Shown here in pieces: positions 12,548 through 27,840 of a DNA stretch of 64,000 nucleotides. The translations under genes were made by a program, and so were the position numbers. The DNA comes from Adhaeribacter aquaticus DSM 16391. GTDB taxonomy: Bacteria; Bacteroidota; Bacteroidia; Cytophagales; Hymenobacteraceae. The first letter of the stretch is position 1, and every line of letters begins with the position of its first letter. Below the pieces are notes generated by a model. That model had not been told where the DNA came from. It ran no database searches and saw nothing but the letters and a program-made list of their open reading frames with translations. The DNA lies in the NCBI RefSeq assembly GCF_000473365.1, contig NZ_KI421517.1, forward strand, positions 4,724,296-4,788,295, in the 5' to 3' direction.

Positions 12548-13840
12548 TCACCCATTTAATATTGGAACATCAATTCTGTCACGGGCTACACAAAAGCCAT
12601 CTTTAATTAAATAACATTCCACAAAATGAGAGCCTTCAAAGGTAGAGTTCTCCGTTCTATCTGTTCCATTTAGATTACTACTAATTATTTGACCTCTATG
12701 TACACCTCTTTCATATGCCAACTTTCCTTCATTCTTAACTTTCCAAAGAATTTCATAGGGTTGGGATACATCTGTTTGTTTAATAAAAAACCGAAGGTTT
12801 TTATTCTTCTTAAGCAGTACCATTTCTTTTAAAAGCCCAACTCTAAAACCTGCCTGTGTTACCTCGCAATCTATACTTAAGAAATTTTTTATATTAATCG
12901 GATATTTATCTTCTATAAACTCTTCTTTATTAGTGAAATTTAAGCTTAATTCTTTGATTTCTCTTGGATAAGGAAACTGGCTACCAAAAACTCTTCGCCA
13001 AATTTCATAAACTGTTTTACTTTCATTATTTTTTATTGCCTCAGATATTAGGTTATATGCTTTCTTAGCTTTTGAACTAAAGTTCGACTTTTTCTTATAC
13101 ACCTTTTGATTGCTTCCAGGAGCAAACCAAAACTTTCTATTACTATCCAGCTCTTTTAAATAATAGAAAAAACCTTGAACAAATTCATCATACTTATCAA
13201 AGCCCAAGGTTGCATAGTATGAATTTTGTTTAATAAAGTTGTAGGCAAATGTATCAATCAATAACCCATTAATTTTTACACCATTTTTGTTTTTCCAAGC
13301 TCTTGCTATCCTACATAGATTTACTAGATTACTCTTAGATGTTTTATCCAATTCTAAAATTGCCTTAGCTTCAGGAAGAGGATTTGTCTTTTTCCAACTA
13401 CCACCATAATTGGAATCAGGATAGGTAAAACTATTATCAGTTTCTTTAAATGCAGGGCAAACCTCAATGAAATCACTTTTAAATTCGACCACTACTACTT
13501 GCCCATCACCCCTAACCTTAGATTGAGAATAAGTTTTTGAGATAGAATTTCTTACATCTTGTAATAGCTGACTTTGCTTATTTCCAACCCTATTATTGTA
13601 TTGATAATATAACTCAGAAGGAAGTTCAAAGATTATATCTAAATCACTAACCCCATTTATGGCGGTATTTCTACCATAGCTACCGATATAAATTCCATTC
13701 TCTGTATTCGAATTCAAGCCATAGAAATCTAAATTTAGCCTTTTTGTTATAGTTGCAAATCGGGACTCAATATTAGTTTGGTTTTCAATGACTAAATTAT
13801 TTACAAATCCACCAAAGATTTTGGCTATATCCATTAACAA
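12548..13840 (-). CDS. CD-NTase (SMODS) nucleotidyltransferase with AGS-C sensor domain
   Basis: 430 residues. The N-terminal polymerase-beta-like domain has the signature G-S-Y-G-R (53-57) then SDLDIIFEL, with Asp66 and Asp68 as metal ligands. A third acidic residue is in FKSDFIEVCPAF near 123-126. The last ~110 residues (NLRFFIKQ, PYEILWKVKNEGKLA, RGVHRGQI, HFVECYLIKDG) match the AGS-C domain, a predicted sensor attached to adenylyl/guanylyl cyclases and SMODS enzymes. CD-NTases make cyclic di- or trinucleotide signals that switch on a partner effector during phage infection. Its start overlaps the SLATT gene by 44 bp (ATG 13834 is an alternative). No Cap2/Cap3 accessory genes, so a type I-like CBASS layout. 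Confidence 0.85.
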   Translation of the reverse strand: MLMDIAKIFGGFVNNLVIENQTNIESRFATITKRLNLDFYGLNSNTENGIYIGSYGRNTAINGVSDLDIIFELPSELYYQYNNRVGNKQSQLLQDVRNSISKTYSQSKVRGDGQVVVVEFKSDFIEVCPAFKETDNSFTYPDSNYGGSWKKTNPLPEAKAILELDKTSKSNLVNLCRIARAWKNKNGVKINGLLIDTFAYNFIKQNSYYATLGFDKYDEFVQGFFYYLKELDSNRKFWFAPGSNQKVYKKKSNFSSKAKKAYNLISEAIKNNESKTVYEIWRRVFGSQFPYPREIKELSLNFTNKEEFIEDKYPINIKNFLSIDCEVTQAGFRVGLLKEMVLLKKNKNLRFFIKQTDVSQPYEILWKVKNEGKLAYERGVHRGQIISSNLNGTDRTENSTFEGSHFVECYLIKDGFCVARDRIDVPILNG

Positions 13841-14405
13841 ATTGAATTATTAAAATTAAGAGTAAGATTAAAATTATTATTTTTAATGAGTTAGGTAATT
13901 TATCTTTAATAAATGAGAACTTCAACTGTTCATCTATCCATTCAATTTGCATTTCATAAAAAAATTTAAAATGAGCATACCACTGAGAAGTAAAAACCTG
14001 CTTACTTATTGATTTGGAATAAAATTCATATAGTAAATTTTGGTATTCATTTTCATAGGTCTCTAACCTAAAGCTTGAATCTGATTTAGCCTTATAGTAT
14101 AAATCTCTCATATTATTAAAAAGACGAGTTAGTCTGATACCTTCTTTCTCGTAATCATCAGTTTTATTTTTATATACTTCTAGATAAATTATCGCAATAC
14201 CCGCAAATATTAAAATAATTGATAATTCTTTATTATAGATTATATTTTCATAAGCTATTTGGAGAATACCAATAGCTAGCGAGATAAATCCTATCCAACT
14301 TGGCAATTTATTTATAATGTCAAATGATGCAAAGTTCTTTTTAGCACCAAATCCAATATCATATCCTTTAGTTGCTAGTGTTTTTAAAAAAACCTCTTTT
14401 GTCAT
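13797..14405 (-). CDS. SLATT-domain membrane effector
   Basis: 202 residues. Two adjacent hydrophobic helices near 36-55 (WIGFISLAIGILQIAYENII) and 60-78 are followed by a long charged helical stretch with R-L-x-x-L-F-x-N-M-R-D-L-Y and a hydrophobic helix near 172-190. This is the SLATT fold (SMODS and SLOG-associating two-TM effector). Such proteins are thought to form membrane pores when their partner CD-NTase makes a nucleotide signal, leading to abortive infection. It is the first gene of the operon and its end overlaps the CD-NTase gene, tying the two functions together. Which SLATT subfamily is not resolved by eye. Confidence 0.75.
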   Translation of the reverse strand: MTKEVFLKTLATKGYDIGFGAKKNFASFDIINKLPSWIGFISLAIGILQIAYENIIYNKELSIILIFAGIAIIYLEVYKNKTDDYEKEGIRLTRLFNNMRDLYYKAKSDSSFRLETYENEYQNLLYEFYSKSISKQVFTSQWYAHFKFFYEMQIEWIDEQLKFSFIKDKLPNSLKIIILILLLILIIQFVNGYSQNLWWICK

Positions 14406-16050: not shown

Positions 16051-16569
16051 ATGACCAAGAAGATTATAAAACTATTTGCAGCCATTTTCTTTGTTGGACT
16101 TACTATTTACTACTTTTTTCCTGATAGAAAACTTCCAAATGAAACAAGAATTACCAAATTGGTTGTGCTAAAATCAGAAAGAAAATTATTAGTATATGAT
16201 AATAAAAAGCTGATTAAGACTTACAAGGTAGCTTTAGGAAGAAATCCTATTGGTGATAAAAAGGTGGAGGGCGATAAAAAAACGCCAGAAGGTATCTACT
16301 ACATAAATGATAAGAACCCTAACAGCGGGTATCATAAGAATCTAGGTATCTCCTACCCTAATGCTGATGATATAGCACAAGCCAAGAAATTGAGTAAATC
16401 TGTTGGTGGAGCCATTAAAATACATGGTTTAAAAAATGGCAGAGGATATATAGGTAAATTTCACCGATGGAAAGATTGGACATTAGGCTGCATTGCTTTA
16501 ACAAATTCTGAGATTGATGAACTTTATGGAGCTGTGAGATTAGGAACTCCAATAAATATTAAACCTTAG
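16051..16569 (+). CDS. L,D-transpeptidase (YkuD domain), membrane-anchored
   Basis: 172 residues. An N-terminal hydrophobic segment (IIKLFAAIFFVGLTIYYFF) is a signal anchor. The YkuD domain follows: KLVVLKSERKLLVYDNKKLI, KKTPEGIYYI, IKIHGLKNG and the catalytic W-T-L-G-C147-I-A-L-T-N. These periplasmic enzymes make 3-3 peptidoglycan cross-links or attach proteins to peptidoglycan, using a cysteine nucleophile and a histidine. The next gene of the glycosylase operon begins 33 bp downstream on the same strand, so this may be the first gene of that transcript, although its role would be unrelated. Confidence 0.85.
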   Translation: MTKKIIKLFAAIFFVGLTIYYFFPDRKLPNETRITKLVVLKSERKLLVYDNKKLIKTYKVALGRNPIGDKKVEGDKKTPEGIYYINDKNPNSGYHKNLGISYPNADDIAQAKKLSKSVGGAIKIHGLKNGRGYIGKFHRWKDWTLGCIALTNSEIDELYGAVRLGTPINIKP

Positions 16570-16602: not shown

Positions 16603-17256
16603 ATGACATTAGATGCTTACCAATCTCTTTTACAAAGTTTGCCAGTAATGCAACAAAGCTTCACCACGAAGCGCAATAACTGGATTTATGCTGAAAAACA
16701 AATTGATTGGTTACAAGAGCTTAATAACCAATTGTTTCAAAAGCAACCTTACCTTGAACTGAGTAGACAAGACCTCTTTTCTTATATTGGCTCTATTCGA
16801 GAACTAATTGTTAAAATTATATATTGGGGATACCCCAATGGCATGCGTGGCAACAACTTTGTCAATATTATGAAAAATATTGAGGTACTGGAAGATGCCC
16901 TCAACAGCATCAAAATAAAAACTAACCTTAATCAAACAGACTATAAATCCTTAATTAAAGCTTTTGATGGCATTGAAGGTTTAGGTATGTCCACATTCAG
17001 CAAAATTTTATATTTCATGGGCATTAGGTTTAATGGCAACCCATCGCTGATTCTTGACCTCAGGCTCATAGATGTGTTTCAATGTGCCAAATTTGCCGAT
17101 TTTGTTGAACTAGAATGTATCCGATACGACAATACCAGAAAGCATTATCTTAACTACATCCGAACTATGAACGAATTAGCTGCAAGGCTTGGTACAAGCG
17201 GTGAGAGTATTGAGCAGTTTTTATTTATATTCGGAAACAATTTAAAAATTAATTAA
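16603..17256 (+). CDS. HhH/OGG-fold DNA-glycosylase-like protein
   Basis: 217 residues. A helical protein with a recognisable helix-hairpin-helix: FDGIEGLGMSTFSKIL (121-136; GLG hairpin followed by S-x-S-K134) and then SLILDLRLIDVF with Asp152. In OGG1-type glycosylases a Lys of the HhH and an Asp shortly after it are catalytic; Lys134 and Asp152 occupy comparable places. This points to the 8-oxoguanine-glycosylase-fold group found in bacterial accessory loci. The expected reaction is removal of an altered base from DNA. It starts the six-gene operon, 70 bp before the DUF262 gene. The N-terminal part is unassigned. Confidence 0.6.
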   Translation: MTLDAYQSLLQSLPVMQQSFTTKRNNWIYAEKQIDWLQELNNQLFQKQPYLELSRQDLFSYIGSIRELIVKIIYWGYPNGMRGNNFVNIMKNIEVLEDALNSIKIKTNLNQTDYKSLIKAFDGIEGLGMSTFSKILYFMGIRFNGNPSLILDLRLIDVFQCAKFADFVELECIRYDNTRKHYLNYIRTMNELAARLGTSGESIEQFLFIFGNNLKIN

Positions 17257-17326
17257 AAATACCAACTCACAGATTAGTACCGACAATATATCATCAAGTT
17301 GGTCTAAAAAATAAATTCTTATTTAT

Positions 17327-19018
17327 ATGGAAGCATCATCTACTATTAAGAAAGTTCTTGCAGGTAATAAAATCTTCGTTCCTTCATATCAGCGAGCTTA
17401 TTCATGGGATACAGAAAAAAAACCAACAGAAAAGAAAAAACAAGTAAATGATTTTGTGTCTGACTTAGATGACTATATTAGGAGTTCAACTACTACCCCT
17501 TATTACTTTGGTCATTTTCTGTTTCAGGAAAAACAGGAAGGGGAATATGGTGTAATTGATGGGCAGCAAAGATTAACTACTATTGCTATTTTCTTATCAG
17601 CACTCTTTACACATCTAAAAGCCTTGAGGAATTTAACTGATTCAGAAGAAGAAAGTTATGAGGATATGATAAAAAGAAGGTCAACTTACAGATTCACTAC
17701 AGTTGATTATGATAAGCAAGTATTTAAGGACTATGTAATAGACCATAATCGAGTAAACAAAAGTGGGCTGGCAACTGAATCTGCTAAACGTATTGTAACA
17801 GCCTATGATTACTTTGTTCAGCATCTTGAAACAAAGGATGAAAATTACCTTATTAAAATGCTTGATGCCATTCAGAATGCATCCTGCACTACCCACAATG
17901 TAAAAGATGAAGCTGAAGCTATTCAGATGTTTATCTTCCAGAACAATAGAGGTAAAAAGCCATCTAATTTAGAAATATTAAAAGCTGAATTTATGTTCAA
18001 TGTCCACTTATATGGTGGTGAAGAGAAATATGACATTATAGAAGAGATAAAAGATAGATTTAGAGAAATATATGAATCAATTTCTTCTATCGAGTATAAA
18101 GTTAATGAAGATGATGTTTTAGTATATACGCTTAGAGTTTATTTTAATTCTTTATGGGAAACCAATGCCATTGATAAAATCAGCAATATATTATCAGAAG
18201 GAAATCCAATAAGGTTTATCCAGGATTTTACACGTTCTTTGGCTGTAAGCTTTGGACATTTAAAATGTTTTTTTGGAAAAGACGAAAGGGAAAATATTGA
18301 AATTCACTCTCTTGTAACACTTGGAGGTATTGCTATAGCTATTCCTTTTATTATAAAAGCTTATAGCTTTGGATTGAGTACAAAACAAATCTGTAGTCTT
18401 TGCACTGCACTTGAAACCATTGTATTAAGACACCGCCTAATAGGAACAAGAGCAGACATAACTGCACGTTTGAATGAAGTTTATAAAAATTTTACCCAAG
18501 AGAACTTTGACATTAACCCAATTCTACATAGAATAGATGGGATGAAAAACGCACCTAACGATTCTTGGTGGTGGGCATACTGGAACAAGTCTGAGCTTAA
18601 GAAAGCTATTCAAGGTAAAGTCTCACATTCATCTGCTAAATACCTTCTCTGGAAATACGAGAATCACTTAGAGAGCCAGGGGAAAAATGGTTATACACCT
18701 AAACGATATGACGCAATCGAAAAGCCAGAATTAGAGCATATTGCACCACAAACTGAAAATCCTGCGGCTGGTTATTGTGCCTACGATGAAGAATTTAAAA
18801 ATCAATATATAGACTGCTTAGGAAACTATTTATTATTATCTAAATCCCACAACTGTTCAGTAGGTAATGAGCCATTTGTAGTTAAACGAAATACATACGA
18901 ACACCTTGCTCAGCAGCGGGAAATACAAAAAATGACAGCAGATAATCTAATATGGTCTAAAGAGTTAATAGAAAAGCGTAAGGATAAAATCACAAACTTT
19001 ATACTGGAGAATATTTAA
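17327..19018 (+). CDS. DUF262/DUF1524 (GmrSD-like) nuclease
   Basis: 563 residues. The N-terminal DUF262 domain has VPSYQRAYSWD (19-28), FGHFLFQ and the DGQQRLTT motif (78-85) of the ParB/Srx-like NTP-using fold. The C-terminal DUF1524 domain is an HNH-type nuclease, with LEHIAPQTEN near residue 470, LGNYLLLS and a closing N-x-x-x-G-N segment. Both halves of GmrS and GmrD are therefore in one chain, as in single-chain type IV modification-dependent restriction enzymes that cut glucosylated hydroxymethylcytosine phage DNA. Here it lies between an OGG-like gene and a GIY-YIG gene, supporting a role against modified DNA. The actual modification recognised is unknown. Confidence 0.85.
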   Translation: MEASSTIKKVLAGNKIFVPSYQRAYSWDTEKKPTEKKKQVNDFVSDLDDYIRSSTTTPYYFGHFLFQEKQEGEYGVIDGQQRLTTIAIFLSALFTHLKALRNLTDSEEESYEDMIKRRSTYRFTTVDYDKQVFKDYVIDHNRVNKSGLATESAKRIVTAYDYFVQHLETKDENYLIKMLDAIQNASCTTHNVKDEAEAIQMFIFQNNRGKKPSNLEILKAEFMFNVHLYGGEEKYDIIEEIKDRFREIYESISSIEYKVNEDDVLVYTLRVYFNSLWETNAIDKISNILSEGNPIRFIQDFTRSLAVSFGHLKCFFGKDERENIEIHSLVTLGGIAIAIPFIIKAYSFGLSTKQICSLCTALETIVLRHRLIGTRADITARLNEVYKNFTQENFDINPILHRIDGMKNAPNDSWWWAYWNKSELKKAIQGKVSHSSAKYLLWKYENHLESQGKNGYTPKRYDAIEKPELEHIAPQTENPAAGYCAYDEEFKNQYIDCLGNYLLLSKSHNCSVGNEPFVVKRNTYEHLAQQREIQKMTADNLIWSKELIEKRKDKITNFILENI

Positions 19019-19045
19019 TTATTGAGTAAAAGCTTCTTTTAATAT

Positions 19046-20626
19046 ATGTCAATTGTACTAAACGATGGCTACTGTCCAGAATGTCAGTTAAACAATGAGG
19101 ATGTTAGGCTTATGCTCAACAAGGATGATTTTTGGGAATGCCCAAAATCAAACCTTCAACTTGCAGGCTATGGAGTTGATGCAGCCATATTAAAATTCCG
19201 AGGAACAGGAAAGTTTAAAGATACTCCTATCTATGGCACAGACGAAATTTGCGGTGCAGTCCTTTCTCGGACTGAGGGTGATTCAATTTTGCCAAGTGAA
19301 TCTTTCTTTAACTCACTGGATGATTTTAAAAACTACCTACTAAATGAGGTTGAGCCTAATTTAAAATTAAGTCTGGAAAACCTAGCAATCACATACATTA
19401 ATTTCAAGTATGGTGGTGGTTCATACTTACCTTTTAAACGGCAGTCCAAGAACTTCAAAATAGATTTTGAGAACCAAAGCATTTTAAGAAAACTTGAAAA
19501 GCGGGATGCAGAAGAAGGTATGCTGTTTCAACAGTCCTACACACATTTGTACAGCCTATTGGTCAAATTATTCCAACACTATTACAATGGCAACATTGAT
19601 TGGCTACCAGAAATGGGCATGAGCCAGAACCAGGTTGCGCTTTGCAATAAGCATCTTCATAATGCACCTGAGCCAATTACTCATATAATTGACAAAGATA
19701 TAATAAAGCCAAGACTCTTAAATTTTATAGTTGACCTAATTGAAATCATTTACTGTGGTAAGCAGATTTCCACTTCATTCAATCAACTATCAAAAGATAC
19801 CGCTGTAACCTCTTATGCTGAGCAAATACTTACACTTCAAGAAATTTTAAACCTTAAGACAAACCTGTTTAATAATGCTAAGGTGAAGCTTGTACGGCAT
19901 AAGGATAGCAGGAAAGAATACCGTGAACTTATAAAAGATAAAGCAAAACTGCTTGAATATCAACGTGAACAGAGCAAGGAGGTGTTCAAAGACTGTGATT
20001 ATATCATTTCATTCATAGGTCAGGAAGGAACCAAGTCGCTCTTGTTTGGCATCTTTAAAGTTAATGGGGTAGAAAAGCTCGAAGATAGCTTCTACTATAA
20101 TTTAGAGCAGGTGCATGATATAGATTCTCTAGTAGACCGAGTGGTTATAGACTGGGGAGACAACGCCATCGCTTGGCACCAATGGTATCACAAACAACCA
20201 AAAGAAATCGTGCAGATTCTCCCAAAAGGCTATTTAGGCTCTTTCCCTGGTCTGCTAAACTTCGTGTTGGACTTTGAAGAGCTTGTGAAACTTGTTCAGA
20301 ACCCTGATGCAAATCAAGACTGGAAAAACCATCTTTCTGCTGTGAATGGCATTTATGTCATACTGGATTCCAGAACAGGTGAGCAGTATATAGGTTCAGC
20401 CTGCGGAGAAAATGGCATATGGCAAAGGTGGAGCGACTATGCAAAAACCTTTCATGGTGGCAATAAGAAACTTATTGAGCTTTGTCAAAAAGAATCTGAA
20501 TATTATAAGAACTTCCGCTTCTCCATCCTGCAATCACTTCCAAGTAACATTACAAAAAAAGAGATAGTAGCTATTGAGTACCTGTATATGCAAAAGCTTG
20601 GAACAAGAGCCAACGGATTAAATTAA
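19046..20626 (+). CDS. GIY-YIG nuclease with N-terminal Cys motif
   Basis: 526 residues. The C-terminal ~100 residues are a GIY-YIG nuclease: NGIYVILDSRTGEQYIGSA, then GIWQRWSDYAK, HGGNKKLIEL and a late Glu in EIVAIEYLYMQKLGTR. The N-terminus has a possible zinc ribbon (CPEC at 11-14, ECP near 31). About 350 residues between are unassigned, including FPGLLNFVLDFEELVKLV just before the nuclease, a segment I associate with phage and restriction-type GIY-YIG proteins. It should cut DNA with a divalent metal. It ends 1 bp before the glycosylase-like gene, so the two are translationally linked. Confidence 0.8.
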   Translation: MSIVLNDGYCPECQLNNEDVRLMLNKDDFWECPKSNLQLAGYGVDAAILKFRGTGKFKDTPIYGTDEICGAVLSRTEGDSILPSESFFNSLDDFKNYLLNEVEPNLKLSLENLAITYINFKYGGGSYLPFKRQSKNFKIDFENQSILRKLEKRDAEEGMLFQQSYTHLYSLLVKLFQHYYNGNIDWLPEMGMSQNQVALCNKHLHNAPEPITHIIDKDIIKPRLLNFIVDLIEIIYCGKQISTSFNQLSKDTAVTSYAEQILTLQEILNLKTNLFNNAKVKLVRHKDSRKEYRELIKDKAKLLEYQREQSKEVFKDCDYIISFIGQEGTKSLLFGIFKVNGVEKLEDSFYYNLEQVHDIDSLVDRVVIDWGDNAIAWHQWYHKQPKEIVQILPKGYLGSFPGLLNFVLDFEELVKLVQNPDANQDWKNHLSAVNGIYVILDSRTGEQYIGSACGENGIWQRWSDYAKTFHGGNKKLIELCQKESEYYKNFRFSILQSLPSNITKKEIVAIEYLYMQKLGTRANGLN

Positions 20627-20627
20627 A

Positions 20628-21296
20628 ATGATTATGCCAATAACAGACCATCAATTCCTTGACCTTTATCCTGTTAAAACAACGGATACAAAAATGATTG
20701 TGGGAACAATTCATCCACACTTAATCGAAAACTTCCGCATTCCTTTCTTTTATGGCAATGTTGGTAGCTTTTGGAATATACTTCATCATGCATTCCCCCA
20801 TTATAGTATTTTACAACATGATGATTTAGTCCTGGGTAATATCTTAGCAATGCTTGAATTAAATAATATATGGATTACTGATATAATTAGACAGTGTGAA
20901 AGAGAAAATGAAACCATCACGAAGGATGCCTTATTATATAATATAGTTCTTAACATAGAGCAAATTGAACTCGCCCTTGAGAATACAGAAATAAATACTA
21001 TATACTTCACCTCTGGTTTTGGTATAAATAATGCTGCTCAACTGTTTACACAAGCTTTTGGGATAAATTACTTAGAAAATTATAATGCAGCTATAAATGA
21101 GTTTACTATTCCTGAGAATCAGTTCGGAAGAGAAATAAGATGCATCGTATTGTATTCTCCATCAAACGCAGCCAATATTGGTATATCTCGTTCTATACCT
21201 TATCTTAATAACATCGAATACTATCAGCAGTTTCAAACGCCAGTCAAGCAGTTTAAAATTGACTATTACCAGAGCAAGTTTCAGCTTTTAAATTAG
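20628..21296 (+). CDS. Uracil/hypoxanthine-DNA-glycosylase-superfamily protein
   Basis: 222 residues. The N-terminal motif I-V-G-T-I-H-P (24-30) followed by FFYGNVGSFWNIL (40-52) matches the UDG superfamily, in particular the family-6/hypoxanthine glycosylase type (G-T-x-P ... Y-Y-x-x-x-x-N-x-F-W). A C-terminal YSPSNAAN (about 174-181) matches the L-x-S-x-S-P-A-N loop that inserts in DNA. The expected activity is excision of a deaminated or altered base. The polar residue after G-T differs from classical enzymes (His29 in place of the water-activating position), so the substrate may be unusual. Adjacent upstream gene ends one base before its ATG. Confidence 0.7.
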   Translation: MIMPITDHQFLDLYPVKTTDTKMIVGTIHPHLIENFRIPFFYGNVGSFWNILHHAFPHYSILQHDDLVLGNILAMLELNNIWITDIIRQCERENETITKDALLYNIVLNIEQIELALENTEINTIYFTSGFGINNAAQLFTQAFGINYLENYNAAINEFTIPENQFGREIRCIVLYSPSNAANIGISRSIPYLNNIEYYQQFQTPVKQFKIDYYQSKFQLLN

Positions 21297-21312
21297 ATAT
21301 CAACATCATATT

Positions 21313-22161
21313 TTGGTAACAGACAACCAAACAAACTTCCTATTTCTTGCTGATAGTTTACCAAAAAAGTATCCTGATTTTTACCAACGGTTTGAAAAAA
21401 TATTAACTGATAATAACATCCATTTTTCATCGCTTCTTGGCACTAAAGATATATGGTGTCGGGATTATATGCCTATTCAGGTAAATGCTGATAAGTATGT
21501 ACAGTTTATTTATAATCCAGATTATCTGCAAAGCAAAAAGTGGCAGAAAACGATTTCTGATGTAGATGCCATTTGTGAAGCTATTGGTATTAGGCCATTA
21601 AAATCAAACATTAAATTTGATGGTGGAAATTTAGTTCGGTCTGCTAATAAGATAATTATGTGCGACAAGGTGTTTAGAGAGAACCCTCAGATACCAGAAA
21701 AACAATTGATAAAAGATTTAGAAGAACTTCTTGAGGTAGAACATTTAATCTTTATTCCAACTGATTCATCCGACACTATTGGCCATGCCGATGGCATGGT
21801 TAGATTTTTGGATGATAAAACTGTTTTAATAAATAATTACTCCAAAGAAAATCCACAATTTCAGCGGACATTCAGATTAGCACTTCATAATGCGGGTTTA
21901 GATTGGATAGAAATTCCATACAATCCATATGGTAATAAAAAGCTAATTCAGGCTAATGGTAGTTATATTAATTACCTTCAGGTGGAAAATGTTGTTATTA
22001 TACCATCTTTTGGAATAGAAAAAGATATTCAGACATTAAGTAAATTTAAACAACTTTTCCCAAATTATAAGGTGTCAAATATTGATTGTAATGATATTGC
22101 CAATGAAGGTGGCATTTTAAATTGTGTATCTTGGAATTTGGTTAAAATTGCTCCTTTATGA
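21313..22161 (+). CDS. Agmatine deiminase/peptidylarginine deiminase-fold enzyme
   Basis: 282 residues. All family landmarks are present: DIWCRDY (Asp46, Arg50, Asp51), KFDGGN (Asp103), GHADG (His158, Asp160) and the C-terminal GGILNC271VS nucleophile. Enzymes of this fold hydrolyse a guanidino group (agmatine, peptidyl- or free arginine) to a ureido group and release ammonia. No signal peptide, so cytoplasmic, and shorter than agmatine deiminases (about 350 residues). The start is TTG at 21313 with no in-frame ATG upstream. Its presence inside a defence-type operon, overlapped by the next gene, is unexpected: it may alter an arginine, polyamine or guanidino-modified base. Confidence 0.8.
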   Translation: MVTDNQTNFLFLADSLPKKYPDFYQRFEKILTDNNIHFSSLLGTKDIWCRDYMPIQVNADKYVQFIYNPDYLQSKKWQKTISDVDAICEAIGIRPLKSNIKFDGGNLVRSANKIIMCDKVFRENPQIPEKQLIKDLEELLEVEHLIFIPTDSSDTIGHADGMVRFLDDKTVLINNYSKENPQFQRTFRLALHNAGLDWIEIPYNPYGNKKLIQANGSYINYLQVENVVIIPSFGIEKDIQTLSKFKQLFPNYKVSNIDCNDIANEGGILNCVSWNLVKIAPL

Positions 22162-22988
22162 CAAATCCATTAGAAGAAGAATTAGATATCTTTTTAGAAA
22201 ATATTGCCTTAACCAGTTCAATGTTTTACCAAACTTCAACCCATCTTAATAATCAAAAAAAATATCTAATTAAAAATTTTCAAGGTCAAAACCCAGAGCA
22301 AATGATTATGGGTTATGCCTTGAATATAGGTGATTTAACTGGCCCAACCGATAATGGATACAAGCTTATTTACCCAACTGGTAAATACCAACAGATTAAG
22401 GTTAAGGAAATAGAAGAAAGTATCAACCTTTTAGTTAAAAGGGATGGGATGAGATGTGTAGCAAATTGTTATGAAGTACTGGAATCCTTTCTTTTTGATA
22501 TTTCAGCAATATATGCTTTTAAAAATCCTCAAGATTTCGCTCAGGTAATTAAGAAATCCAACTTTACGCCCGACATTAATCTTAATTTTTTTAAGGAATA
22601 CCTTAGGAAAAACTTTAGGGGTAGGAATAACAAAGAAATCTTAAAACTTATAAAAGGTTTATCACCATCCTTCAATGCTTCTGAAATGCCAGTTAAGCAT
22701 AACATATCTGAATGGTACCAAGTAATAACTCAAGTAAGACATGCCATTACTCATTCATTATTTAAAATAGACAAGGAAAAGGCACACTTTACACCACACC
22801 AAAAGGAGATACTGGTTTTATATTTTTCATTTAAAGAGGAAAACCAATATTATTTATTGGAAATGACAGAAGAAGAAGCTAAAAAGCAAATGCAATTAGT
22901 CGCAGAATATGGCTTTCACATCTTTAAATGTCTAAGTATGGAAAAATCTTATGATTGGCAAGTTCTTAAGTATATGAAGAAAGACTGA
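22158..22988 (+). CDS. Hypothetical protein with RX4H (HEPN-like) motif
   Basis: 276 residues, largely helical. The segment EWYQVITQVRHAITHS contains R194-x4-H199, the arrangement of the HEPN RNase motif, placed at the start of the last third as in many HEPN proteins. An earlier CYEVLESFLFDISAI helix could be the partner helix. HEPN RNases cut tRNA, rRNA or mRNA and mediate growth arrest in defence systems. The gene overlaps the deiminase by 4 bp (ATGA), so the two are coupled. I do not recognise the exact family; the motif alone can occur by chance. Confidence 0.5.
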   Translation: MTNPLEEELDIFLENIALTSSMFYQTSTHLNNQKKYLIKNFQGQNPEQMIMGYALNIGDLTGPTDNGYKLIYPTGKYQQIKVKEIEESINLLVKRDGMRCVANCYEVLESFLFDISAIYAFKNPQDFAQVIKKSNFTPDINLNFFKEYLRKNFRGRNNKEILKLIKGLSPSFNASEMPVKHNISEWYQVITQVRHAITHSLFKIDKEKAHFTPHQKEILVLYFSFKEENQYYLLEMTEEEAKKQMQLVAEYGFHIFKCLSMEKSYDWQVLKYMKKD

Positions 22989-23700: not shown

Positions 23701-24588
23701 TCAGGAAGTAGGAATGTGGTAAACTTTCGGCGGTGGGATAAGGTACCGGGGTAAGTTTTCCATATTTCCACTTTCATTTTTTGCTGGCCATTGGCTGGGA
23801 GTTAAGTTGCCTAATGCTTCATGCGGCCTTCTGGTATTATATTCTTCTACCCACTGCCCCGTTAATTGCCGGACTTCTTCCAGGTCAAAAAACAGATAAG
23901 CATCGAGTATCTCCCGGCGATAACTGCCGTTAAAGCGTTCAATATATCCATTCTGCATCGGTTTTCCGGGCTGGGTATATTGTATTTGAATTTCCTCCTT
24001 TTTACACCAACTACTGAAATCAGCACTGGTAAATTCCGGGCCATTATCTACCCGGATTGTCGCTGGCTTGCCGCGCCAGTCAATTAGTTGCTCCAAGGTG
24101 CGTACCACTCTTTTAGCTGTAATAGAAGTGGCAATTTCGATAACTAATGCTTCTCTATTACAATCATCTATAATGTTCAGTGTCCTGAATTTATTACCCG
24201 AAGCTAAGCTGTCACTCATGAAATCCATACTCCAGCTACTATTCAGCACTGCTTGCGCTTGCAATGGCTGCTTGACCCGGGCCGGCAATCTTCTTTTCCC
24301 CCTTTTCTTTTTGTTTAGCTTTAAGAGTTTATAAACCCGGTACACCCGCTTGTGATTCCACGTCTTGCCTGCCCTTTTCAGGTAGGCTAGCAGCTTACGA
24401 AACCCATAAACCGGATGCTTATCGGCTAATGCTTGTAATGCACTGATGACCTCGGTATCATCTTTACAGCTCTGATAATAAAACTGGGAACGGGCCAGGC
24501 TGCTTAACCCGCAAGCCCTGGTAACAGGTAAGCCATAGTCCGAAATTAATTCTTCAGCTAGTTGCTTTTTCCCCCAGGGCCCCAGCCT
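23701..24588 (-). CDS. IS3-family transposase OrfB (DDE catalytic part)
   Basis: The open frame of 295 codons has no strong start of its own at the 5' end; it is best made as OrfAB by -1 frameshifting. It begins KRLGPWGKKQLAEE and continues HPVYGFRKLLAYLKR, then the DDE integrase core: WSMDFMSDSLASG with the first Asp, NIIDDCNREAL, VDNGPEFTS with the second Asp, and a Glu in FNGSYRREILD followed by HEALGNLTPSQW. A GTG at 24345 would give only a 214-residue truncated form. All catalytic acids are intact, so the element may be active. Confidence 0.85.
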   Translation of the reverse strand, partial: RLGPWGKKQLAEELISDYGLPVTRACGLSSLARSQFYYQSCKDDTEVISALQALADKHPVYGFRKLLAYLKRAGKTWNHKRVYRVYKLLKLNKKKRGKRRLPARVKQPLQAQAVLNSSWSMDFMSDSLASGNKFRTLNIIDDCNREALVIEIATSITAKRVVRTLEQLIDWRGKPATIRVDNGPEFTSADFSSWCKKEEIQIQYTQPGKPMQNGYIERFNGSYRREILDAYLFFDLEEVRQLTGQWVEEYNTRRPHEALGNLTPSQWPAKNESGNMENLPRYLIPPPKVYHIPTS

Positions 24589-24872
24589 TTTTTTGTGATA
24601 ACCTCTTTCAAAATGCTGTGGTCCAGGCTTAAATCAGCAAACATTTTCTTTAGCCGGGCATTCTCTTCTTCCAGTTCTTTCAGCCGCTTTACATCCGAGG
24701 CTTCTAATCCCCCATACCGGCTCTTCCATTTGTAAAACGTCGCCCGACTTATTTCCAGCTCACGACAAATGTCCTCGGTCTTCCGACCAGCTTCATTTTC
24801 TTTGATAGATTTTACTATCTGACTTTCACTAATTCTGCTCTTTTTCATCTTTTCTAGTTTAAAAATAAACAC
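24558..24872 (-). CDS. IS3-family transposase OrfA
   Basis: 104 residues. An N-terminal helix-turn-helix of the Tnp_IS3/IS911 type (SESQIVKSIKENEAG, ICRELEISRATFYKWKSRYGGL) is followed by a leucine-zipper helix (VKRLKELEEENARLKKMFADLSL). It recognises the inverted repeats and dimerises. It overlaps orfB; the T7 run on the plus strand at 24588-24594 gives A7 in the message for the programmed shift that makes OrfAB. The likely true start is the MKKSRISESQ methionine a few codons inside. Confidence 0.85.
   Translation of the reverse strand: MFIFKLEKMKKSRISESQIVKSIKENEAGRKTEDICRELEISRATFYKWKSRYGGLEASDVKRLKELEEENARLKKMFADLSLDHSILKEVITKKGWGPGGKSN
24588..24594 (-). promoter_or_regulatory. Programmed -1 frameshift run (A7)
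   Basis: On the minus strand the run is A AAA AAA followed by GG. Slipping back one base turns orfA ACA-AAA-AAA-GGC into the orfB frame AAA-AAA-AGG-CTG. This is the common IS3-family slippery heptamer. Confidence 0.7.
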
Positions 24873-26181: not shown

Positions 26182-27840
26182 GTGAATAATAATGATTTAG
26201 AATTTTATATACCACATAATATAAATATAAGAGACCTTTTAAAAAAAGAAGGTAAAGGACTACGCTACATTGATTGCCAAATAGATAAGTATCACTGGTT
26301 TTTGGATGCTTTATATAAAAGAAGTATTGTGAATAAAAGGTATAGTACTGGTGATTTCATACCAATAAACCACAAAAAGTTGGGGGAACTACTAGGCTCC
26401 AGATACATAGTCCATATTAAAAAGTTTTTTTTGAGCCAGGGAATTATTGAAAGTGATGGAGACTATGAGATAGACAACAAATGTTTAGGCTTTAGATTAA
26501 CTCCTGAATATCAGGTTCGTCATATTAAATTATTACAAGATGATGATAGCACCTTTATTAAAAACCTAAAAACATTCCATCAGAAACAAATTACTAAAAT
26601 GGATGAAATCACCAGGTACACTTATGATCAGTTAAATAATATTGGTATTTACCGAGAAGAAGCCGAGAAATATGTCGAAGATTGGTATCATCAGAATTAT
26701 CTGGTAGAAAACCCCAAACTGGTAATGAAATTAGCCAAGCTGAACAAAAAACGAAGAAAAAGGGAGAATAAAGCAAAAGTTAATAATCAAGCTATAAAAC
26801 ATTTAGTTCTTACCTATTACCAGTTACTGGAAATCATGCGTGATAGCTATTTATTCCAGATCAAAGCTATAGATGAAAAAACATGGCTCCCAAAACGAGA
26901 TGATAAAGGCTTAAGAATCCATACCTATCTAAGTAATGCATGGAAAGAGCTACGTCAGTTCTTATATGTGAAATCTAATCCTGCTATTCAACTGGTTTCT
27001 TTGGATTGTAGCAACTCTCAGCCATATACCTTGGTGAAAATACTATTAGAGTATTTTAATGGGTTAGACTTATATTCTGGCGAATACGAGGACACTCTGC
27101 TTTATATCGAACTAGTAACTACAGGAAAGCTTTACTCTTTCATGTGTCAAAAGTTGAGCATTACCGACCCAGAAGAGATAACTGAGTTCAAGGTACAGAT
27201 GTTTGAGAAAATATTTTATTGCGCAAATGAGGAAGGCTACGATACTAAAGCAGCAGAAACATTCCGCAACTTTTTTCCAACGGTTTACCAAATTATCATG
27301 CATGAGAAAATGTTTGATTACAATAAATGGGTTAATCAAATGCAAATGGTTGACAGTTCTACGACCTCAAACGAAGCTTTATTTGAACATAAACTTAAAT
27401 TAGCCAAGAAAAATGCTTACAAGCAATTAAGCATACAAATGCAACGTGTTGAAAGTAAGGCTATTCTGGACACCTCAGTAAGTTTACTGAAAGATAAATA
27501 TGGCACTACGGTGTGGTTCGGCAGTATACATGATGCGATTTTGTGTCCGATGGAATTAGCGGATGAAGTACGCCAACTGATGCTAGAATCTTTTACTAGT
27601 GTAGTAGGTATACCACCACATATTAAATCGCCAGAAAAGGTTAATGTTTTGAAGGTAAGGAAAGAGGTTGATACCTATTCTGAATTACCTGACACAACGC
27701 CATTAGCGGAGCTACAGCAGCGTTTTGAAACACTGTTTGCATCAACTGCATATAATAAAAATATTGAGCGTAGAGTGCCTGAAACCGATTTTTATGTAAA
27801 AAAACGTAAAGCTTATATTGAGTATGGTATCGAATGGTGA
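26182..27840 (+). CDS. Divergent family-A DNA-polymerase-like protein
   Basis: 552 residues, GTG start. Residues 1-270 have a winged-helix-like start and a Lys/Arg-rich helix (KLNKKRRKRENKAKV). From 270 on the motifs of Pol I appear in order. Motif A is SLD275CSNSQP, where Pol I has D705-Y-S-Q-I-E. The fingers helix is EFK337VQMF341EKIF345Y, with K, F and F/Y spaced as in Pol I (K758, F762, Y766). Motif C is IH450D451AI (Pol I H881-D882-E). D275 and D451 are 176 residues apart, and 177 in Pol I. There are no exonuclease domains. Two exchanges (Glu710 to Gln, Glu883 to Ala) make activity uncertain. Possibly a replication protein of the island. I know no name for the family. Confidence 0.55.
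   Translation: MNNNDLEFYIPHNINIRDLLKKEGKGLRYIDCQIDKYHWFLDALYKRSIVNKRYSTGDFIPINHKKLGELLGSRYIVHIKKFFLSQGIIESDGDYEIDNKCLGFRLTPEYQVRHIKLLQDDDSTFIKNLKTFHQKQITKMDEITRYTYDQLNNIGIYREEAEKYVEDWYHQNYLVENPKLVMKLAKLNKKRRKRENKAKVNNQAIKHLVLTYYQLLEIMRDSYLFQIKAIDEKTWLPKRDDKGLRIHTYLSNAWKELRQFLYVKSNPAIQLVSLDCSNSQPYTLVKILLEYFNGLDLYSGEYEDTLLYIELVTTGKLYSFMCQKLSITDPEEITEFKVQMFEKIFYCANEEGYDTKAAETFRNFFPTVYQIIMHEKMFDYNKWVNQMQMVDSSTTSNEALFEHKLKLAKKNAYKQLSIQMQRVESKAILDTSVSLLKDKYGTTVWFGSIHDAILCPMELADEVRQLMLESFTSVVGIPPHIKSPEKVNVLKVRKEVDTYSELPDTTPLAELQQRFETLFASTAYNKNIERRVPETDFYVKKRKAYIEYGIEW

Follow-up and report, generated by a model that had tools for sequence, protein, structure and literature searches.

A short PAD-type deiminase paired with exchangeable DNA-attacking enzymes at a gene cluster of Adhaeribacter aquaticus

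Base-excising defense is a young subject, represented by Brig1, Brig2 and Brig3 (PMC11078745, PMC13160076). In the accessible parts of the Brig3 report, BapA removes glucose from 5-hydroxymethylcytosine and Brig3 then excises the base; the two genes overlap in one operon, with CBASS and an ADP-ribosylglycohydrolase gene nearby, and BapA is modeled as two beta-barrels (PMC13160076). It is the only base-preparing helper enzyme described in the literature consulted (PMC13160076). A different solution is CMoRE, which the available portion of its report presents as a single-protein GIY-YIG type IV restriction enzyme acting against modified cytosine (PMC12923530). Here we analyze a 64,000-nucleotide stretch of Adhaeribacter aquaticus DSM 16391 (contig NZ_KI421517.1, positions 4,724,296 to 4,788,295; hereafter the window), in which a short deiminase of the peptidylarginine deiminase (PAD) type follows genes for a GIY-YIG-type protein and a UDG-superfamily protein. 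Comparative sequence analysis and structure models support well the view that these three genes are a case of a pairing of Bacteroidota, in which a short PAD-type deiminase is joined to an exchangeable DNA-attacking enzyme.

A preliminary description of the region had read six genes as one system with two glycosylases, two nucleases, a deiminase and an RX4H protein. Its six co-oriented open reading frames, all on the + strand, and their spacing of 70, 27, 1 and 16 bp followed by a 4-bp overlap were borne out when the coordinates were rechecked. The residues it had picked out are likewise all present, namely K134 and D152 in gene 1, R50, H158 and C271 in gene 5, and RHAITH (R194-x4-H) in gene 6. 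The six genes are:

16603..17256, + strand: gene 1, OGG-like HhH protein (PF21790, 4.3e-26), not a constant member
17327..19018, + strand: gene 2, GmrSD-like DUF262/DUF1524 protein (GmrSD_N 1e-30, GmrSD_C 3e-15), a neighbor and not constant
19046..20626, + strand: gene 3, N-terminal domain plus UzuA/GIY-YIG domain (PADLOC UzuA, 1.1e-90), core member
20628..21296, + strand: gene 4, predicted UDG-superfamily, hypoxanthine-DNA-glycosylase-like protein (hhalign and fold matches), core member
21313..22161, + strand: gene 5, short PAD/agmatine-deiminase-like protein with a TTG start (PAD_porph, 6.9e-32), constant member of the pair
22158..22988, + strand: gene 6, RX4H protein, possibly HEPN (HEPN_MAE_28990, E 0.027, below cut-off), not constant

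A single six-gene system is not what other genomes support. Of 194 sampled genomes of the order, a single one, the own genome, showed OGG (PF21790), and likewise a single one, again its own, showed gene 6. Neither turned up by tblastn in the ~19-kb deiminase loci of two further genomes, G240 and G063 (loci L009 and L010), or by blastp within four genes of the deiminase in 80 named loci. What is real is the link between glycosylase, nuclease and deiminase, which recurs as adjacency. In G240, of the same family, the UzuA/GIY, UDG-like and deiminase genes are contiguous and 69, 68 and 61% identical to those of the window, with no OGG and no gene 6, so that of the gene order proposed earlier genes 3–5 recur there and genes 1 and 6 do not. 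In G063 the UDG-like part, 44% identical to gene 4, and the deiminase part are a single 492-aa protein. A third genome, G196 (L059), has the order YkuD, OGG remnant, UzuA/GIY (65% identical to gene 3), a PD-(D/E)XK gene, UDG-like gene, deiminase. Because OGG and gene 6 were seen only in the own genome of 194, the core, as judged by sequence, is genes 3–5: UzuA/GIY-YIG, UDG-superfamily and short deiminase. Across genomes the comparison further indicates that it is the deiminase that stays constant and the partner that can be exchanged, a point the preliminary description missed.

The assignment of gene 5 as a deiminase is secured by its match to PAD_porph (PF04371, 6.9e-32), a match to 1xkn (1.4e-26) and the catalytic Asp/His/Asp/Cys. 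D51, D103, H158 and D160 are invariant among 22 relatives and C271 is nearly so; R50 is not conserved, being V in several of them. Gene 5 thus shares family profile and catalytic residues with agmatine deiminases and Porphyromonas-type PADs. It differs from them in length (~280 aa here vs 335–378 aa in 20 controls), in scoring below the AguA equivalog (TIGR03380, 59.4 bits vs a cut-off of 381.8) and in belonging to a separate clade of short deiminases with DNA-enzyme partners. A search profile built from four deiminases finds this ~280-aa clade in 25 of 291 genomes of the order, the own genome included, at E better than 1e-44, and the next match comes at 5.6e-29, where the usual ~350-aa deiminases start. 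A scan of named genomes with the 22-row profile returned 503 stretches encoding relatives; the best 80 of these, almost all from Bacteroidota by record title, are the named loci. Among short deiminases of at least 230 aa (n=105), GHxD is kept in 104, GxxN/HC in 104 and DGGN in 103. Nearly every one of them thus keeps the residues typical of guanidine-modifying enzymes (GME), so the substrate is expected to bear a guanidine- or amidine-like group.

Within the order, 17 of the 26 in-clade loci (L056–L079, L009 and L010; the lower-scoring outsiders L080 and L081 were also read) have a partner beside the deiminase or fused to it, as confirmed with profiles. The partner is UDG-like in L009, L010 (fused), L056, L059 and L079, HNH-like in L057, L058, L060, L072, L073 and L078 (fused), and AAG-like in L061, L062, L068, L070, L071 and L077. 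A same-strand gene lies at most 70 bp upstream of the deiminase in 64 of the 80 named loci, overlapping it by exactly 4 bp in 32 of them, and 52 of these upstream genes form three blastp clusters: AAG-like (28), HNH-like (16) and UDG-like (8). After nine identical or contained copies were dropped from 111 loci (near-copies such as L148/L153 remain, and some genomes stand in both sets), 70 of 102 distinct deiminases are adjacent or fused to a partner, where "adjacent" disregards strand and distance (the L112 partner, in at least one such case, sits on the opposite strand) and the partner profiles were partly built from the same loci. These partners are AAG in 35, HNH in 21 and UDG in 14, and they lie upstream in 62, downstream in 5 and fused in 3, the fusions being UDG-PAD in G063 and HNH-PAD in G027 and in Rufibacter latericius (L082). 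The same profiles find no partner gene of these kinds within three genes of any of 20 long agmatine deiminases (Fisher test 3e-9, disregarding shared ancestry and the partial circularity of the profiles). Two of the four viral contigs with a relative (L183 and L184) carry an AAG-like gene with the deiminase. At E<=1e-15, 70 random proteins taken 2–4 genes from short deiminases in the named loci matched 168 PADLOC models, against 2 for 70 taken near long agmatine deiminases, a contrast that is weak because many models are redundant, the 25 shown each being matched by two of the 70 proteins.

The exchange of partners can be seen most directly between close relatives. Deiminases that are 88.2% identical have a UDG partner in L056 and an HNH partner in L126; the same two types accompany a pair at 80.2% identity (L059 and L084), and AAG and HNH accompany a pair at 70.5% (L099 and L060). 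That deiminases 80–88% identical are joined to unrelated folds shows that the partner is exchanged and the deiminase retained. A quick tree of 96 deiminases (the 102 distinct ones minus six too short; 35 inner branches out of 93 are open, and L078, L186 and L185 form long rows) gives 20 partner-type changes by parsimony, counted over rows with a partner. When each type is set against every other row, its well-supported branches alone force 6 changes for AAG, 6 for HNH and 10 for UDG. On the same tree AAG, HNH and "none" are clustered (0 of 500 shuffles as low) and UDG is not (73 of 500). Swapping among unrelated folds makes it unlikely that the deiminase acts on the partner protein. Its substrate is probably something common to all partners: DNA, a base or a nucleotide.

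According to a structure model of one member (predicted local distance difference test, pLDDT, 84.8), the largest partner class has the AAG fold: seven AAG entries score Z 12.7–11.8, the highest being human AAG, and the next fold falls to 4.7. Hymenobacter daecheongensis (L132) has a partner of this class. Alignment with bacterial AAG by hhalign is modest (E 6.4e-5, 64%). Apart from the predicted fold, the class resembles AAG/3-methyladenine DNA glycosylase (PF02245) in ETEAY- and LIRA-like motifs that align; it differs in that none of its 28 members matches PF02245 at E<=1, and the family is matched by no Pfam model. Canonical AAG genes are present besides the AAG-like genes in 11 of 14 relatives' genomes. 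At the AAG residue that we take to be numbered N169 the profile alignment puts Gly, and so does not bear out a replacement by Asp, which would have hinted at a base carrying an exocyclic amine. Twelve of 17 HNH-like partners match PF01844 weakly (E<=0.1, best 3.5e-4), and the class (profile A9) keeps four Cys and CNN in the pattern CxxC...CxxCNN. Four UDG-like partners were scanned against TIGR04274 (DNA-deoxyinosine glycosylase) and gave 9.2e-27, 8.2e-22, 1.7e-7 and 9.4e-5, with L122 (9.2e-27) above the cut-off, L114 just below it and L091 and L119 weak. Partners of GIY-YIG type occur in a few loci.

Gene 4 itself has no convincing match in Pfam, NCBIfam, PADLOC or PHROG and none to TIGR04274 at E<=1. 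Aligned by hhalign with hypoxanthine-DNA-glycosylase-like relatives (profile A8, whose four scanned members all match TIGR04274 at 9e-27 to 9e-5), it gives 97.5% and E 5.3e-12. Its structure model, of modest confidence (pLDDT 65.6), has as top PDB folds TDG (Z 11.2), 2l3f (11.0), MUG (10.2) and family 4 UDG, with scores down to 9.1. The UDG-like assignment made earlier thus held in both profile and structure search, which supports gene 4 as a hypoxanthine-DNA-glycosylase-like member of the UDG superfamily with predicted excision activity. Used as sole query, gene 4 found homologues in 8 of 291 genomes of the order (3 strong, including its own), and it found no plasmid or phage record and no locus in the first genome scan; the A1 profile matches in 15 of 395 genomes of the phylum. 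Among the A1 matches, the four loci read from one family (f26), 3–4 kb each, have a solo homologue of ~206–241 aa and no deiminase.

Gene 3 encodes 526 aa, with an extra N-terminal domain (~1–245) before the UzuA/GIY-YIG domain. Residues 261–526 match PADLOC UzuA PDLC03973 at 1.1e-90 over profile positions 2–276 of 278, and this near-full-length match upholds the GIY-YIG assignment; the direct GIY-YIG Pfam match reaches 0.0012, below cut-off. The protein has in common with Uzume, which we take to be defined as a single-gene system and which is reportedly the work of Millman and colleagues (2022), that its C-terminal part covers almost the whole UzuA length. It differs from a stand-alone gene of UzuA length (the UzuA models matched have 278 and 310 positions) in its added N-terminal domain and linked genes: UDG-like and deiminase genes come after the UzuA part in the window, G240 and G196. 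In Adhaeribacter soli (L083) the gene before PAD joins a counterpart of the gene 3 N-terminal domain (58% identity) to an HNH-like domain; the HNH-like domain there replaces the UzuA/GIY half, so swapping occurs also inside the gene-3-type protein. Gene 3 resembles CMoRE, compared by description, in joining a GIY-YIG nuclease to another domain, CMoRE being directed at modified phage bases; the GIY-YIG domain is N-terminal in CMoRE and C-terminal in gene 3, which moreover sits in a multi-gene locus (PMC12923530, as far as its available text goes).

How might such a pair work? We give about an even chance to the broad proposition that the pentein-fold deiminase acts on DNA or nucleotides, at a guanidine- or amidine-bearing base or an ordinary purine, with the base then destroyed by the linked and interchangeable glycosylase or nuclease. 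More specifically, and more tentatively, at somewhat below even, sequence and analogy suggest an anti-phage or anti-mobile-element module in which the deiminase would edit a modified foreign base and the partner would excise or cut. The target of the deiminase would be a hypermodified base in foreign DNA, on which it would hydrolyze a guanidine or an amidine; 2'-deoxyarchaeosine, which carries an amidine, is a candidate for this base. Deoxyarchaeosine is present in phage 9g, according to the accessible text of two reports (PMC6884629, PMC5567051). The partner would then recognize the edited base, UDG and AAG types excising it and GIY-YIG and HNH types cutting the strand; host DNA would be spared because the base is absent there. 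In the window, abasic sites would come from the UDG-like protein of gene 4, and the cuts from the GIY-YIG domain of gene 3.

In this scheme the deiminase would do what BapA does, but on a base that bears an amidine or a guanidine. The likeness to Brig1 and Brig3–BapA, as these are described in the parts of the papers available (PMC11078745, PMC13160076), lies in a UDG-superfamily glycosylase within a defense locus, as gene 4 is, and, for Brig3–BapA, in an overlapping two-gene operon with an enzyme that edits a modified base, such editing by the deiminase being predicted here. ADP-ribosylglycohydrolase genes lie near the Brig loci, and the deiminase of L075 is fused to such a domain. The resemblance of gene 4 to Brig1, Brig2 and Brig3 is one of fold and setting, by description. 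Differences are that the second enzyme here is a PAD-family deiminase whereas BapA is a glucosyl hydrolase, that partners include AAG-fold, HNH-like and GIY-YIG proteins, and that the hosts are, by record title, mostly Bacteroidota.

Several observations weigh against an editing module of this kind. We found no evidence for a guanidino or amidine base, deoxyarchaeosine included, in phages of these hosts, and the substrates of the pentein-fold enzymes known to us are small molecules or proteins, with no case of DNA among them. A strictly obligate pair is rejected: no recognised partner accompanies 32 of the 102 distinct deiminases, and AAG-like genes also occur solo. The AAG-like protein is found in 19 of 291 genomes and beside a short deiminase in 6, and no deiminase lies within two genes in 10 solo AAG-like loci inspected. 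All 17 HNH-like partners have an apparent Arg in place of the usual catalytic His (R89 of L130, 6582–7001; motif-based). The UDG-like gene of G196 is linked to gene 4 by profile alone (1.2e-9) and not by tblastn. Finally, the count of 70 in 102 is partly circular because the partner profiles drew on the same loci, and, with the named loci being the best 80 of 503, it says little on more distant relatives.

In the main rival reading, which we think unlikely, the lesion is the deiminase's own product: it would turn adenine into hypoxanthine, or guanine into xanthine, in foreign DNA or the nucleotide pool, and the partner would then excise or cut. It ranks as the main rival because hypoxanthine is a substrate class that hypoxanthine-DNA glycosylase has in common with AAG enzymes, which likewise remove it. 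Some UDG partners fall in the DNA-deoxyinosine glycosylase family (L122), and on chemical grounds purines hold carbons that resemble those of amidines or guanidines, the type attacked by GME enzymes. However, we know of no pentein enzyme that deaminates nucleobases, the host's own DNA would be endangered unless some rule told self from non-self, and partner specificity could have shifted, as in the Brig enzymes. A toxin–antitoxin or regulatory pair, in which the partner would be toxic to the host and the deiminase would restrain it, for example by deiminating partner arginines, appears quite improbable. Such a pair would fit the two-gene order, the 4-bp overlaps with the partner mostly first, and the resemblance of some loci to mobile elements (ParB- and exonuclease-like neighbors, by eye), but the 88.2% identical deiminases with UDG and with HNH are a misfit with partner-specific binding, and in the fusions deiminase and partner share one chain.

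We grant an equally small chance to a metabolic deiminase, acting on agmatine, arginine or a guanidino compound, that clusters with DNA enzymes only by way of defense or mobile islands. The homology to agmatine deiminases and PADs is clear (1xkn), and some loci adjoin type I restriction–modification, McrBC or GmrSD genes; against this stand the 4-bp overlaps, the three fusions and the 0 of 20 long agmatine deiminases with a partner. Direct adjacency, fusions and these controls together indicate more than island-level clustering. Least probable, and in our estimation very much so, is a six- or seven-gene defense system in which two glycosylases, two nucleases, the deiminase and an RX4H effector act together. 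Co-orientation, tight spacing and the OGG remnant of G196 speak for it, but OGG and gene 6 were each seen in a single genome of 194, and neither was found by tblastn in the G240 and G063 loci or by blastp within four genes of the deiminase in the 80 named loci.

If the pair does edit foreign bases, it would be, as far as known, the first DNA-base role for the pentein superfamily and would point to a general two-step immune principle, edit and then excise, with swappable executioners across Bacteroidota. It would further predict a new base modification in Bacteroidota phages and a new DNA-editing chemistry, and it would provide a search handle for many unannotated defense loci, given 503 stretches from a single pattern. 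Even if it does not, a constant deiminase with an exchanged DNA-attacking partner is a strong and directly testable anomaly. A pair of deiminase and DNA enzyme was not found described in the literature searched, a scope that mostly leaves aside subscription papers, and the word "deiminase" is absent from the main texts, so far as available, of the Brig1 (PMC11078745), Brig3 (PMC13160076), DefensePredictor and base-excision restriction papers.

The remaining genes of the cluster are less constant. Gene 2 carries DGQQR and the HNH-like LEHIAP, and both its DUF262 and its DUF1524 domain were found, so the earlier GmrSD-like reading stands; its best PADLOC model is HEC-06 (2.6e-46), and a few further loci (L134, L139, L140, L075 and L009) also have a GmrSD-type gene close to their deiminase. 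For gene 6 the RX4H motif alone is weak, since it arises by chance in 14.8% of 2000 shuffles of the gene, and the best HEPN match is the one listed above. An OGG C-terminal remnant of 32 residues (56% identity) lies between the YkuD and UzuA/GIY genes of G196 (L059:1570–1665), which suggests that OGG was once linked there too. Around the cluster, the window contains:

12548-13840, - strand: CBASS oligonucleotide cyclase (PADLOC, 4.1e-167), overlapping the SLATT_6 gene
13797-14405, - strand: CBASS SLATT_6 2TM effector, forming a CBASS-type pair with the cyclase
16051..16569, + strand: YkuD L,D-transpeptidase-like gene (PF03734, 4.6e-22), 33 bp before gene 1
23701-24872, - strand: IS3-like transposase pieces a short way downstream of gene 6 (rve domain, 23701-24345)

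The YkuD gene is probably the first gene of the same transcription unit as genes 1–6, and a copy 63.5% identical to it precedes the UzuA/GIY gene in G196. The CBASS genes, which agree with the defense setting claimed for the region, end ~1.6 kb before YkuD and 2.2 kb before gene 1. Farther downstream, positions 26182-27840 encode a 552-aa protein with no Pfam match, whose relatives lie ~2–7 kb from the deiminase in G240 (L009, 18203-18715) and G196 (L059, 8098-9417); its gene probably belongs to a shared mobile element.

Some deiminases without a recognised partner adjoin SRAP, McrBC or GIY-YIG/DUF4357 genes. In L066 (4316-5870, - strand) the short deiminase is directly followed by a SRAP gene (PF02586, 5.6e-70), which we take to encode an HMCES/YedK-type abasic-site protein, and a second deiminase copy in the same genome (L067) follows McrB and McrC genes, with one small gene in between. 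The fused deiminase of L075 (3886-5838, - strand; ADP-ribosylglycohydrolase PF03747, 2.9e-29) sits behind a GmrSD_N protein. Deiminases of Prevotella and other Bacteroidales (L151, L155, L156, L157 and L160), for which no DNA partner was recognised, have an extra N-terminal segment of ~145–160 aa that, by eye, starts with a likely transmembrane stretch. Also by eye, solo AAG-like genes (L162–L171) lie next to glutamyl- or glutaminyl-tRNA-synthetase-like genes in L162, L165, L170 and L171, and a conserved family of 92–103 aa is encoded downstream of the deiminase in L090, L093, L110 and L152, with a similar gene upstream in L146.

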